Source: Kiloniellaceae bacterium (lineage in GTDB: Bacteria; Pseudomonadota; Alphaproteobacteria; Kiloniellales; J153). From it: a stretch of 63,876 nucleotides of DNA. Location: assembly GCA_021776135.1 (NCBI GenBank), contig JAJFGL010000027.1:1-63876 (forward strand), written 5' to 3'. Each line of letters opens with the position of its first letter. Position 1 is the first letter of the stretch. Made by a program: the position numbers and the translations under genes. The notes beneath the pieces are model-generated. The model was not told the origin of the DNA. It worked only from the letters and a program-made list of their open reading frames with translations, and did no database searches. Of the stretch, positions 15,631 through 40,277 are shown in pieces.

Positions 15631-16095
15631 TCAGGCTATCCGCTTTGCGTGCCGGTCCGCGATATCCGGGGCGCCGGGCAGGAAGTTACCGGGGCCCGGC
15701 AGCATGTCGGCCAGGCTGACCTCAGATAGCGCCCCGTGAATGGCTTTGTTGACCTTGTCCCAGTTGCCCCGCATGGGACAGAAGGATTCGGACTCGCACC
15801 CGCCGGCCGCGCCATCGACGCAGGCGGTCAGGGCGATGGGTCCTTCCATGGCCTGGACGATCTCGGCGATCGAGATATCCGTGGCCGGCCGATTCAGGTT
15901 ATAGCCGCCGGCGGCGCCCCGATGCGAGGCGACCAGCCCGGCATGGGCCAGGACGTTCAATAGCTTCGCCACCGTGGGCAAGGGAACGCCGGTTTCCTGG
16001 GCGATGGAGGGCGCCGTGCACAGGCCGTCCTGGGCGCGTGTCATCTGGCTCATGGCCACCACTGCGTAATCCGTCAAACGATTGAGTTTGAACAT
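15631..16095 (-). CDS. Rrf2-family SUF system regulator
   Basis: Rrf2 proteins sense Fe-S status and control cluster assembly genes. The 154-residue protein has a winged helix (LTDYAVVAMSQM, VPLPTVAKLLNVLAHAGLV) and three cysteines, C92, C100 and C106 (CVDGAAGGCESESFC), followed by NWDKVNKAIHGAL. The CX7CX5C spacing matches the SUF-system regulators rather than the CX5CX5C of E. coli IscR. A TTG at 16107 is in frame, but the ATG at 16095 has GGAG six bases upstream and starts at the family's usual MFKLNRLTDY, so I chose it. It is first in the suf operon and divergent from the cytochrome P460 gene at 16335. Confidence 0.92.
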   Translation of the reverse strand: MFKLNRLTDYAVVAMSQMTRAQDGLCTAPSIAQETGVPLPTVAKLLNVLAHAGLVASHRGAAGGYNLNRPATDISIAEIVQAMEGPIALTACVDGAAGGCESESFCPMRGNWDKVNKAIHGALSEVSLADMLPGPGNFLPGAPDIADRHAKRIA

Positions 16096-16112
16096 CCCGA
16101 TCTCCAAATCGG

Positions 16113-16334: not shown

Positions 16335-16979
16335 ATGTTATTCTATTCGAGGGCCAAGCGCAGTGTCTTTTCCACGGCCTTTCTTCTGGCATTTGTGGCG
16401 GCGCCCGCTTGGGCGCAAACGGATGTCGATCCCAGCAAGCCGAAGAAGCATTTCACGGTCTCGCGGCCCGCCGGCCTGAGCGGCGCCGACGCCCAGGATA
16501 TCTACGACCGAATCGAGGACGACATGGTGGCGGGCTATCGCCTCTCGCTGGAGCCCAGCGCACGATCCTATGGCCGCTGGCCGCGTTACAATACCGCGCC
16601 CTACCGTTCCGCCCAACACGGCGAGCGTTTCGTAAATAACTATGCCAACGACCTGGCCCAGGACTACCGTTTGTACGAGCGCTCCGGCCCCATGCCGGCC
16701 GGCTCTATCCTGGTCAAGGACAGCTTCGCAGTCACGAAAAAGGGCGATGTCTTCAGCGGCCCGCTTTTCATCATGGAGAAAATGGCGCCCGGATTCGAGC
16801 CGGCGAGCGGCGATTGGCGCTACACCGCGATCATGCCCGACGGCAGCCTTCTGGGCACGACCAAGGGCAGCGGCTCGCAGCGCATGGAATTCTGCGTTTC
16901 CTGTCACGCCCAGGTCGGGGACAACCAAGACCACATGTTTTATGTGCCCGAGGCCTACCGTCTCGGCGCCGCTGACTGA
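16335..16979 (+). CDS. Secreted cytochrome P460 family protein
   Basis: Cytochromes P460 are periplasmic c-type haem enzymes that oxidise hydroxylamine or bind NO in characterised cases. The 214-residue protein has a signal peptide (cleavage probably after AWA, residue 27) and one haem-binding motif, CVSCH (187-191). The region before it contains the family pattern SGDWRYTAIMPDGS. The conserved lysines in KDSFAV and MEKM are candidates for a haem cross-link, but I cannot assign one. The start follows AAGGAT. It shares the whole domain with the C-terminal half of the next gene ([24 protein letters not shown]), so the two arose by duplication. It is divergent from the Rrf2-suf operon. Confidence 0.82.
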   Translation: MLFYSRAKRSVFSTAFLLAFVAAPAWAQTDVDPSKPKKHFTVSRPAGLSGADAQDIYDRIEDDMVAGYRLSLEPSARSYGRWPRYNTAPYRSAQHGERFVNNYANDLAQDYRLYERSGPMPAGSILVKDSFAVTKKGDVFSGPLFIMEKMAPGFEPASGDWRYTAIMPDGSLLGTTKGSGSQRMEFCVSCHAQVGDNQDHMFYVPEAYRLGAAD

Positions 16980-17118: not shown

Positions 17119-18405
17119 ATGATCTCAACTAAACGGGCGCTGCTTTCGAGCACTGTCATGCCGTTCGTATTGTTCGCTGGCGTCGCGGCGCTTGGCGTGG
17201 GGCTGACCGCCGGAATGGCAAGCAAACCCGCCATGGCGACGTGCAACCCTTGCGCGGCGAAGAAAAAGAAGAACCCTTGCGCGACGGCGAAGAATCCCTG
17301 CGCGGCGGCGAAGTGCAACCCTTGCGCGGCGGCGTGCAACCCGTGCAATCCGTGCGCGGCCAAGAAGTGCAATCCATGTGCGGCGAAATGCAATCCCTGC
17401 AATCCCTGTGCGGCCAAGGGCTGCAATCCCTGTAACCCCTGCGCGGCCAAGGGCTGCAATCCCTGCAACCCCTGTGCGGCCAAGGGCTGCAATCCTTGCA
17501 ACCCCTGCGCGGCGGGTGCTTGCAACCCGTGCAATCCCTGTGGGGCGGGCGGCGGTTCGGCCAGCAAGGCATGTTATGTACCGCGCTTACATGCGGCGGC
17601 GTGCAACCCGTGCAACCCTTGCGCGGCTAAAAAGTGCAATCCCTGCGCGGCCAAGGGCTGTAACCCCTGTAACCCCTGTGCGGCCAAGGCGTGCAACCCA
17701 TGCAATCCTTGCGCGGCCAAGGGCTGCAATCCTTGCAACCCCTGTGCGGCCAAGGCGTGCAACCCGTGCAATCCATGCGCGGCCAAGGGCTGCAATCCTT
17801 GCAATCCCTGTGCGGCCAAGGCGTGCAATCCCTGCAACCCCTGCAACCCCTGTGCGGCGGGCGCTTGCAATCCTTGCAACCCCTGCGGGGCGGGCGGCGG
17901 CTCGGCAGAGCTGACGGATGCCGAGGCGGTGAAGGTTTACGATTGCCTGCTGAAGGACCTGAAGGCCGCCTATGCGAAGTCGGGCAACAAGGTCGCGGTG
18001 TCTTATTCGTCTTGGCCCCGCTACTCCAAGCGGGCCTATGTGTCCGACACCCACGGCGGCCGCTTCGTGCAGAACTACGCCAACAAGAAGGGCCGCGCTT
18101 ACGGCGCCTTCGAGAACGCGGGCACTTTCCCGGCCGGCACGGCGCTGGCCAAGGACAGCTTCGCCGTTTCGGGCAAAGGCAAGGTTACCGCCGGACCCCT
18201 GTTCATCATGGAAAAGATGCGCGCGGGCTTCAATTCGGAGAGCGGCGATTGGCGCTATACCATGGTCATGCCCAATGGCTCGGTCTTCGGCACCACCAAG
18301 GGCAAGGGCGCGGGTAACGTCGAATTCTGCATCGGTTGCCACATCTCCGTGGCGCCGGACCAGGATTCGGTCATGCTCCTGCCGGAGGAGTACCGGGTCC
18401 GCTAG
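17119..18405 (+). CDS. Cysteine-rich CNPC-repeat protein fused to a cytochrome P460 domain
   Basis: The 428-residue protein has a signal peptide (cleavage probably after PAMA, residue 40). A repeat region follows at residues 41-256, and then a cytochrome P460-like domain from about 264 to the end with the haem motif CIGCH (404-408). The repeat region holds about 54 cysteines and 35 NPC tripeptides, mostly in an 11-residue unit [11 protein letters not shown]. It falls into two blocks, each ending [14 protein letters not shown], joined by a short non-repeat linker ([13 protein letters not shown]). There are no acidic or hydrophobic residues within the units, but there are regular lysines. This suggests a disordered thiol-rich, metal-binding or redox-buffering arm on a haem protein in the periplasm. 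I recognise the haem domain, but not the fusion or the function. GGGGAGGGAG precedes the ATG. Confidence 0.85.
17239..17886 (+). repeat. Tandem coding repeat, 33-bp unit with a 66-bp higher-order period
   Basis: The DNA encoding the CNPC region is a tandem repeat with a 33-bp unit (11 codons). In the second block the units alternate AAKG and AAKA versions, giving a 66-bp higher-order period repeated three times. Many units differ only by synonymous changes (TGCAATCCC, TGCAACCCC, TGTAACCCC). Unit number is likely to vary between strains through slippage or recombination, and short-read assembly could misjudge it. Confidence 0.9.
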
Positions 18406-18429
18406 CGCCCTGAAGACAAAGGATCGTAT

Positions 18430-18936
18430 TTGAGTCGCCTCCGCACCGCAGCCAGGGACTCGGTAACCGCGCTTCAAGGGCTTCGGCTTTGTGCGGTTAC
18501 TGTCTGGCTGTCGGTGTTGGGGGCCCCGGTCCTGGCCGACTTCACCGACGGACTGGCCGCCTACGACGGCGGCGACTACGCCACCGCCTTCGAGGAATGG
18601 CGCGGCTTGGCCGAGGCCGGGGATACCGAGGCCCAGGTTGCTTTGGCCGAGCTCTACCTGACCGGCCAAGGGGTGCGCGCCAACGCAGCCACCGGCATTT
18701 CCTGGTACCGCCGCGCCGCCGAGGCCGGGCACCCGGTCGCGCAATTGAACCTGGGCGATTTCCATGCCCGCGGCGCCGGGGTGCCGCGCGATATGACCAC
18801 AGCCTATGTCTGGCTCAGCCTGGCCGCCGAACAGGGCAGCGTCTGGGCCGAAGAGCGGCGCGGCGAAATAGCCCGCGCCATGAACCCGGCGCAAATAGCC
18901 GAGGCCGAAACGCGGATCCAGGCGTTGCGTCCCTAA
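18430..18936 (+). CDS. Small secreted Sel1-repeat protein
   Basis: Sel1 repeats are TPR-like helical pairs that mediate protein contacts. This 168-residue protein has a likely signal peptide (LRLCAVTVWLSVLGAPVLA) and at least three Sel1-like units (ATAFEEWRGLAEAGDTEAQVALAELYLTG, ISWYRRAAEAGHPVAQLNLGD, AYVWLSLAAEQGSVWAEERRG). The start appears to be TTG at 18430, with AAAGGA six bases upstream. It follows the CNPC-P460 gene by 24 bases, so the two are probably cotranscribed. It may be a periplasmic partner of that protein, which is inference from position only. Confidence 0.8.
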   Translation: MSRLRTAARDSVTALQGLRLCAVTVWLSVLGAPVLADFTDGLAAYDGGDYATAFEEWRGLAEAGDTEAQVALAELYLTGQGVRANAATGISWYRRAAEAGHPVAQLNLGDFHARGAGVPRDMTTAYVWLSLAAEQGSVWAEERRGEIARAMNPAQIAEAETRIQALRP

Positions 18937-38996: not shown

Positions 38997-40277
38997 ATGA
39001 ATATAAGACTGTCTGTGGCGTTTTTTTCGTGTCTGATTCTGAGCGCGGCTCTGCTTTTCGGCCCCGGATTGGCGCGGGCGCAAGATTACGGCGCCGGCAT
39101 GGCCGCCTTCGATGCCGGTGATTTCGAGCGCGCGGTCAGGATCTGGAACCCCCTGGCCTTGGCCGGCGACGCGACCGCCCAGTATAGCCTGGGCAAGATC
39201 TACGAGACCGGGAACATAGACCTTGAGCGCGATTATGGGCGCGCGGTCGAGTGGTATCGCCTGGCGGCGGCGCAGGGCGTGGCGGCGGCGCAAAACAACC
39301 TGGGCCTGATGTATGCGCAAGGCCGCGGCGTTGCCCGCGACGCCGGCCGGGCGGCGGAGTTATGGAGCGCGGCGTCCAAACAGAACCATGCCATGGCGCA
39401 GTTCAATCTCGGCTTGGCGTATTTTCGTGGCGAAGGGCTCGCCGAGAATAAGCAAGAGGCCGAATCGCGGTTCCGCCAGGCGGCGGAACTCGGCCTCGCC
39501 GAGGCGCAGTATGCCCTGGGACAGGTCCGGCTTCATGGCCTGACCGCCGAGGCCGACCGGGGCGAGGCGCTCGCCTGGTATCAGCTTGCCGCCGCCCAGG
39601 GGCACTCGAAAGCCAGGGACCAGGCTAAAATCCTGCGCGACGATGGGGTGAAACCGCAGCTGGATGTTGCCCTCGACACGCCAAAAAGCACGGCCCCCGC
39701 CGCACCCGCGAAGACCCAAGGCGCGCCAGCGCCCTCTAATCAACAGGCCGCGCCAGCGCCCGCTAAACAACAGACCGCGCAAGCGCCATCCAAACAACTG
39801 GCCGCGCCAGCGCCAGAACAACAAAATACGACGGCCGCGGAACCGGCGGTAAAGACGGCGAAAACCGACCCATCCCCTAAACCGGCAATGGCAAGCGCGA
39901 AACCGGAAAAGCCGGTCGAGCCCGCGTCCAAGACGTCGGCGGCGCCGCCCACGCCCGCTCCGCAAATCAAGACCCAGATCGCGCGCGCCGGGACCGGGGC
40001 GGTGCCTAGCGGCGCCGGCGGCAAGGTGAAGGCGTGGCTGTACTCGGCCGATAGCGAAGGCGAGGCGGTTCTCTTTCTACGCCGCATGGAGAATCGCTTG
40101 GCGCCGCTTCTGGCCGGAATCGACAGCGCCGTCGCGCCTGTGCGCTTCAGCGGCGGCAAGGTTTTTTACCGCGTGGTCGCCGGCGGCTTCAACACCTGGG
40201 GCGATGGGAAATCTTGGTGCGATCGGGTGACGTCCAGGGAACCGGATACCTTTTGCAAGGTCTTGCCAACACCATGA
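38997..40277 (+). CDS. Secreted Sel1-repeat protein with C-terminal SPOR-like domain
   Basis: The 426-residue protein has a signal peptide (FFSCLILSAALLFGPGLARA) and about five Sel1 units (for example AVEWYRLAAAQGVAAAQNNLGLMYAQG). A long Pro/Ala/Gln/Lys-rich linker follows (residues about 230-340), and then a C-terminal segment resembling SPOR (KVKAWLYSADSEGEAVLFLRRM and YRVVAGGFNTWGDGKSWCDRV). SPOR domains bind denuded peptidoglycan, so it may act at the cell wall or septum. The ATG at 38997 begins the signal peptide. The stop overlaps the next start (ATGA). Confidence 0.83.
   Translation: MNIRLSVAFFSCLILSAALLFGPGLARAQDYGAGMAAFDAGDFERAVRIWNPLALAGDATAQYSLGKIYETGNIDLERDYGRAVEWYRLAAAQGVAAAQNNLGLMYAQGRGVARDAGRAAELWSAASKQNHAMAQFNLGLAYFRGEGLAENKQEAESRFRQAAELGLAEAQYALGQVRLHGLTAEADRGEALAWYQLAAAQGHSKARDQAKILRDDGVKPQLDVALDTPKSTAPAAPAKTQGAPAPSNQQAAPAPAKQQTAQAPSKQLAAPAPEQQNTTAAEPAVKTAKTDPSPKPAMASAKPEKPVEPASKTSAAPPTPAPQIKTQIARAGTGAVPSGAGGKVKAWLYSADSEGEAVLFLRRMENRLAPLLAGIDSAVAPVRFSGGKVFYRVVAGGFNTWGDGKSWCDRVTSREPDTFCKVLPTP

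Follow-up and report, generated by a model that had tools for sequence, protein, structure and literature searches.

Enzymes of the FGE family act on the substrate tag CxPxR and have a canonical copper-binding pair of cysteines, and metallothioneins are Cys-dense, Lys-rich chains with almost no aromatic residues. Bufferins are described in the accessible text of PMC12452194 as Sec-exported, Cys-rich RiPPs made by MNIO and DUF2063 proteins, and a rare Buf1-cytochrome c-FGE fusion is also mentioned there. In the P460/c'-beta superfamily, the haem cross-link residue is Lys78 in McP460, whereas c'-beta proteins have Phe or Met at this position (Phe61 in TtCP-beta), according to a P460 review whose accessible main text uses neither "repeat" nor "fusion" (PMC11928373).

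Here we describe a gene in a 63,876-nucleotide stretch of DNA from a Kiloniellaceae bacterium, hereafter the window. Its product shares with the P460/c'-beta superfamily the fold, a CxxCH motif, and a lysine at the cross-link position, but adds two Cys-repeat blocks, a Cys152-Cys276 pair, and companion genes. In common with bufferins, the system has a Cys-rich chain, a signal-like N-terminus (judged by eye in the window protein), and an adjoining partner gene. By contrast, its partner is DUF6969 rather than MNIO (PF05114), for which the window genome gave 0 matches. By the criterion of the MNIO gene, the window system is therefore not a bufferin. Among related genomes, 16 of 32 contained MNIO (20 matches), and two of these matches had a known DUF6969 place at a distance of about 7 kb or less. 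The likeness of the arm to metallothioneins is one of composition alone; unlike them, the window protein has a signal-like N-terminus, repeats of a short unit, and a fusion to haem domains. A second partner is an FGE-like protein that shares Pfam (PF03781) and PDB matches with the FGE family and has an invariant CGxC close to its C-terminus (13 rows), which may take the place of the canonical Cys pair. As a polythiol family marked by a dedicated gene, these proteins would be a new player in periplasmic metal, sulfur, or redox handling.

The arm-bearing gene and its locus

The features of the gene and its surroundings are as follows.

15631..16107, minus strand: Rrf2 regulator heading divergent SUF genes (Pfam)
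16335..16979, plus strand: armless P460 paralogue, 214 aa (Pfam E 6.8e-7; 51% identity to the window domain)
17119..18405, plus strand: NPC-arm cytochrome P460 protein, 428 aa (start codon ATG at 17119; stop codon ends at 18405)
17119..17238, plus strand: signal peptide-like N-terminus, residues 1-40 (AMA/TC, judged by eye)
17242..17547, plus strand: first half-arm, Cys repeat, about residues 42-143 (composition; AlphaFold pLDDT about 30)
17572..17589, plus strand: CYVPRL, residues 152-157, the C-x-[VIA]-P-R segment within the arm (conserved; AlphaFold strand 148-153, helix 155-162)
17605..17895, plus strand: second half-arm, Cys repeat, about residues 163-259 (composition and AlphaFold model)
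17902..18402, plus strand: P460-fold haem c domain, residues 262-428 (Pfam and P460/c'-beta structure matches)
17944..17946, plus strand: helix 1 cysteine Cys276, putative disulfide partner of Cys152 (co-variation)
18151..18153, plus strand: Lys345, position of the haem cross-link lysine (aligned with McP460 Lys78, counted along the alignment)
18328..18342, plus strand: CIGCH haem c attachment motif (sequence; FCIGCH is residues 403-408)
18430..18936, plus strand: Sel1-repeat protein, 24 bases past the stop of the NPC-arm gene

The original prediction had placed the gene at 17119-18405 with about 54 cysteines and 35 NPC tripeptides in its arm, and our reading of the frame and our counts agree. 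The arm (residues 42-259, 218 aa) contains 54 Cys, 50 Ala, 36 Pro, 35 Asn, and 21 Lys, with 0 Asp or Glu, 1 His, and 1 aromatic residue; the whole protein has 57 Cys, 35 NPC, and 33 CNPC. The dense cysteines bear out the claim of a near-pure repeat at 41-256, except that a conserved segment interrupts it at about residues 145-162. In the AlphaFold model, the arm is disordered, with a pLDDT of about 30. The window protein matched no NCBIfam profile and, in a sequence search, no PDB sequence.

The 35 NPC units are encoded in 11 distinct ways, with variation confined to third codon positions. This indicates that selection keeps the peptide and not a DNA repeat, and a DNA-level repeat as the origin of the arm was ruled out because the codings differ. 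The same variation, together with an arm in 9/9 family genomes, excludes a sequencing artefact, the outcome that would have undone the original claim; the arm is real and occurs in many genomes. An antisense ORF over the arm (17587-18894, minus strand, 435 aa) was read as the shadow of the repeat and not as a gene. Elsewhere in the window, a 27-bp tandem repeat occupies 39722-39814 (3.4 copies).

The armless P460 paralogue and the NPC-arm gene probably belong to the same operon. All 9 family genomes, the window's included, gave an arm match, an adjoining armless P460-type match, and a separate short arm-like match, where the arm gene ends at the contig end in two genomes (G005, G008) and the short form was read as an ORF in the window genome. 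There, this stand-alone CNPC protein (97 aa) adjoins a pyridine nucleotide-disulphide oxidoreductase, a VTT-domain protein, and a histidine kinase. Across the window's order, the domain was matched at E <=1e-10 in 45 of 61 genomes. The Sel1-repeat cluster occurred in 6 of 71 loci, window included, and Rrf2 and SUF genes also lie near arm-P460 genes in L155, L417, L418, L419, and L422.

The haem domain and the CxVPR segment

The claim that a c-type haem domain carries a polythiol arm held up: in addition to the CxxCH motif, the signal-like N-terminus, and the recurrence in many genomes, Cytochrome_P460 (PF16694) matched residues 296-416 above the Pfam cut-off (E 1.5e-7). The AlphaFold model of the domain has pLDDT values by block of 65 to 90 up to residue 390, falling below 50 at 405-415. 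When model residues 286-428 were compared with solved structures by VIA, the first 17 rows were all P460 or c'-beta (Z 6.7-9.6). Because a lysine rather than Phe or Met aligns at the Lys345 position, the domain looks like P460 proper and not c'-beta, and the cross-link itself is predicted. McP460 Asp102, the distal carboxylate of hydroxylamine oxidation, aligns to a gap, next to which the window protein has PLFIME.

The two half-arms are split by KACYVPRL, within a conserved segment that spans about residues 145-162 and that the original prediction did not mention. Residues 149-163 are the sole stretch of the arm with a pLDDT above 50 (mean 77 over 151-160). The C-x-[VIA]-P-R motif was present in 44 of 56 arm-bearing P460 rows, in which a cysteine at the Cys276 position of helix 1 was found without exception. 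This helix cysteine was also present in both rows with a variant segment (CTVPLL in L311, CYVERL in L420), absent from all 22 armless rows, and absent from all 5 arm rows plainly without the segment (L024, L362, L392, L393, L394). The 12 motif-less arm rows consist of these seven, three that begin at contig edges (L116, L128, L139), one that begins inside the arm (L302), and one short frame (L070); among them, the helix cysteine is present in L116, L128, L302, L311, and L420 and missing in the other 7.

From this co-variation we infer that a Cys152-Cys276 disulfide would staple the first strand onto the haem domain. One half-arm would then sit before the stapled strand and the other between that strand and helix 1. 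Armless paralogues carry HFxVxxPA ahead of helix 1, which is perhaps the same strand as the CxVPR segment. In L024 and in L362, L392, L393, and L394, the last four of one lineage, NPC blocks instead occur before helix 1 and in the loop preceding GPLF, so disordered Cys repeats sit at more than one site of one haem fold. A quick tree of 78 domains requires 5 changes among the labels N-arm (51), loop (5), and none (22). Arm length also varies, from 4 to 43 NPC across the 44 motif-bearing rows, some of which end at contig ends.

Related Cys-repeat proteins and their partner genes

The repeat unit of relatives may be CGAC, CDPC, CAAC, CSPC, or single NPCs five apart. The CNPC pair, originally put forward as the defining ligand unit, therefore does not define the group, since relatives keep Cys while changing the N and P or using single NPCs. 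Unlike repeat units occur both near DUF6969 and on P460, and thus Cys density is kept while the intervening letters vary. Cys-repeat arms were found fused to P460, to SoxA/TsdA-type cytochrome c, or to YceI, as well as alone, with stand-alone NPC proteins in, for example, Aestuariispira insulae (L123) and Pelagibius (L110); the stand-alone and cytochrome c-fused forms had no place in the original prediction. NPC arms on SoxA/TsdA-type cytochrome c occur in Marinobacter mobilis (L066), a Granulosicoccaceae genome (L108), and others, with the domain above the Pfam cut-off in L066 and in 4/4 more and just below it in L108. The Marinobacter protein had no match among PDB sequences at E 0.1. A pattern scan of genome contigs for NPC returned at least 116 stretches, many of which contain no NPC ORF. 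A search of the accessible literature returned no description of these Cys repeats, and the window protein is apparently one member of a family of Cys-repeat proteins with signal-like N-termini that has yet to be described.

Several individual proteins illustrate this range. In a Poribacteria genome, a YceI domain protein has NPC repeats on either side (L097 4221-5108). CGAC arms stand on P460 with CVVPR near DUF6969 in L466 and L480. At L453 6682-7020 and L454 7388-7867, CCAAEGCC and CAACAAGCAAC repeat proteins that contain no NPC adjoin DUF6969. The P460 protein at L420 3588-5006, which has the CYVERL segment variant, carries an acidic CDPCAPCDPC arm, and the absence of acidic residues is therefore not general.

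The commonest neighbour, likewise absent from the original prediction, was DUF6969 (PF22308), a His-rich protein with no signal by eye that accompanies P460 and cytochrome c forms alike. We treated the DUF6969 and NPCNPC searches as one draw of class genomes (385 each, with identical handles where listed). DUF6969 was found in 90 of these and NPCNPC in 50: 38 genomes had both, 12 NPC only (9 with a single match), 52 DUF6969 only, and 283 neither (Fisher p 1.2e-17). Requiring at least 2 NPCNPC matches gave 34, 3, 56, and 292 (p 5.5e-21), although related genomes are not independent and both p values thus serve as a guide.

In a draw across the phylum, DUF6969 was present in 20 of 398 genomes. 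Of the 20 places with DUF6969 that lie outside the window genome, 14 had a Cys-repeat ORF nearby, 13 of them called by the rule and one (L445) recognized by eye, two genera contributing three places each, and the repeat units there were NPC, CAAC, CCAAEG, and CGAAKCGAK. A second batch, 20 genomes picked non-randomly from the 52 that have DUF6969 and lack NPCNPC, had a Cys-repeat ORF in 8/20 loci. Overall, 18 of 40 DUF6969 loci were without one, including a locus at a contig edge. On controls, the rule was positive in 5 of 44 eight-kb loci, a lenient comparison because NPC-ORF loci had been removed from the 44, and in none of the 37 overlapping chunks into which the window was cut. In the window genome itself, DUF6969 and an FGE-like gene are paired on another contig (L383 8559-10262), where no Cys-repeat ORF was found over 18 kb; a third contig (L384) carries another DUF6969, again with no Cys-repeat ORF found.

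The association with Cys repeats would be the first functional context for DUF6969, on which a search of the accessible literature returned nothing. Residues H76, H78, E90, H93, and H95 were invariant in an alignment of 14 rows, and comparison of the fold with solved structures gave no clear match (best Foldseek E 0.57, best VIA Z 3.0). The invariant H, H, E, H, H and the partnership with Cys repeats of unlike sequence fit a reading that we consider speculative and rather unlikely, in which DUF6969 would be a new cytosolic metalloenzyme that, prior to export, chemically modifies the cysteines of Sec-exported Cys-repeat proteins, and the FGE-like protein would act on them at a later stage. Such a pathway would be an MNIO-free, protein-sized counterpart of bufferin biosynthesis, with the modified polythiol built into haem enzymes.

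The FGE-like protein (PF03781, Pfam E 3.3e-46), also unmentioned originally, has a signal-like N-terminus, and its PDB relatives in a profile search include ToxD, CalU17, and FGE. Its gene was present in 40 of 70 genomes searched and in 9/9 family genomes. It was found in none of 4 genomes with segment-less NPC-P460 (G541, G637, G719, G789), in none of 5 congeneric genomes whose P460 frame is ~210 aa long (armless on reading in G436 and G437, and presumed so from frame length in G438, G441, and G442), and in none of 12 control genomes free of arm-P460 (G016, G032, G040, G075, G147, G323, G411, G412, G413, G418, G453, G454). Because FGE-like genes partly track CxVPR, we considered the segment as an FGE substrate tag. 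We rejected this idea, as gene and motif mismatch both ways and the Cys152-Cys276 staple fits better: the gene is missing despite the motif in G455, G553, G577, G756, and G691, present where no arm was read in G421, G422, and G446, and accompanied by no CxVPR motif at L069 and L150. G024 and G603 have Cys-repeat proteins and no FGE-like gene.

Possible roles of the arm

Sulfur and redox functions stand out among the neighbours of 71 clustered loci, with cytochrome c at 18, YedE-type at 9, DUF302 at 5, and rhodanese at 4; an ELTQ protein (9) and DUF3179 (6) are further neighbours. These counts are not unbiased because the loci were picked around NPC or DUF6969 places, and they include duplicate DNA (L110/L416, L096/L408). 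The YedE-type match is above the general Pfam cut-off but does not reach the YedE/FdhT and TsuA cut-offs of NCBIfam. The ELTQ protein matched Cupredoxin_1 in 4 of 8 cases, below the Pfam cut-off, and gave one chance-like PDB row (E 0.04). Among the 49 clusters common to at least 4 of the 71 loci, part of which were Pfam-searched, we recognized no transporter for copper or any other metal.

The original prediction offered metal, sulfur, redox, or matrix roles for the arm, and a putative hazard of its cysteines to haem attachment. We tentatively favour, at somewhat less than even confidence, a putative exported polythiol that, next to a haem, buffers either a soft metal, at a first guess Cu(I), or species that react with thiols. 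Sec would secrete the arm as an unfolded chain, its thiols would bind the soft metal in the periplasm or take up the thiol-reactive species, and the tethered haem domain would provide redox chemistry. Consistent with such a buffer are the metallothionein-like composition, the retention of Cys while N and P change, the disordered arm, the partnership with DUF6969, the FGE-like gene in every family genome, and the pair of DUF6969 and a Cys-repeat ORF beside a copper-buffering bufferin operon in L445. Counting against it are the lack of a recognized metal transporter among the shared clusters, the prominence of sulfur and redox neighbours, the Cupredoxin_1 match of the ELTQ protein being below the cut-off, the acidic arm of L420, and the DUF6969 loci without a Cys-repeat ORF; moreover, periplasmic cysteines may simply be oxidised. 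The copper link, through the L445 operon and the Buf1-cytochrome c-FGE fusion mentioned in the accessible text of PMC12452194, is indirect, as is a sulfur link through YedE, rhodanese, and SoxA/TsdA domains.

We regard as unlikely a sulfane sulfur relay, in which the arm thiols would carry persulfides from or to haem enzymes of the periplasm and an importer of sulfur. NPC arms fused to SoxA/TsdA-type domains and the YedE/YeeE-type transporter and rhodanese genes near 9 and 4 of the 71 loci point this way, yet some cytochrome c arm proteins match CCP_MauG about equally, the YedE match falls short of its NCBIfam cut-offs, and the window locus has neither gene alongside. Slightly more doubtful is a sink or matrix in which the arm oxidises to random or intermolecular disulfides and serves as a sacrificial reductant or scaffold. 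A disordered arm behind a signal-like N-terminus, with many cysteines, little else, and a length free to vary, would suit that role, but the fixed CxVPR segment, like the recurrence of partner genes, hints at something beyond bulk, and a matrix has no obvious need for a partner that stays in the cytosol. The kept position of the cross-link lysine in a P460 fold, and the presence of an Rrf2 regulator close to the gene in 6 of 71 loci, could instead reflect a haem that binds or oxidises NO and hands it to arm thiols as S-nitrosothiol. This is improbable in our view, as Cys-repeat arms also occur on cytochrome c, on YceI, and alone, and the Rrf2 gene heads SUF genes, so that its product need not be an NO sensor.

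At L445 3138-6659 (G374), a bufferin operon of MNIO, DUF2063, and DoxX, with a BufA-like ORF recognized by eye, is followed by a CGAK-type Cys-repeat ORF with a signal-like start and a divergent DUF6969. Arm-P460 in L386, L395, L400, L410, and L411 has as neighbours genes recognized by eye as those of a TRAP-type transporter and a universal stress protein.
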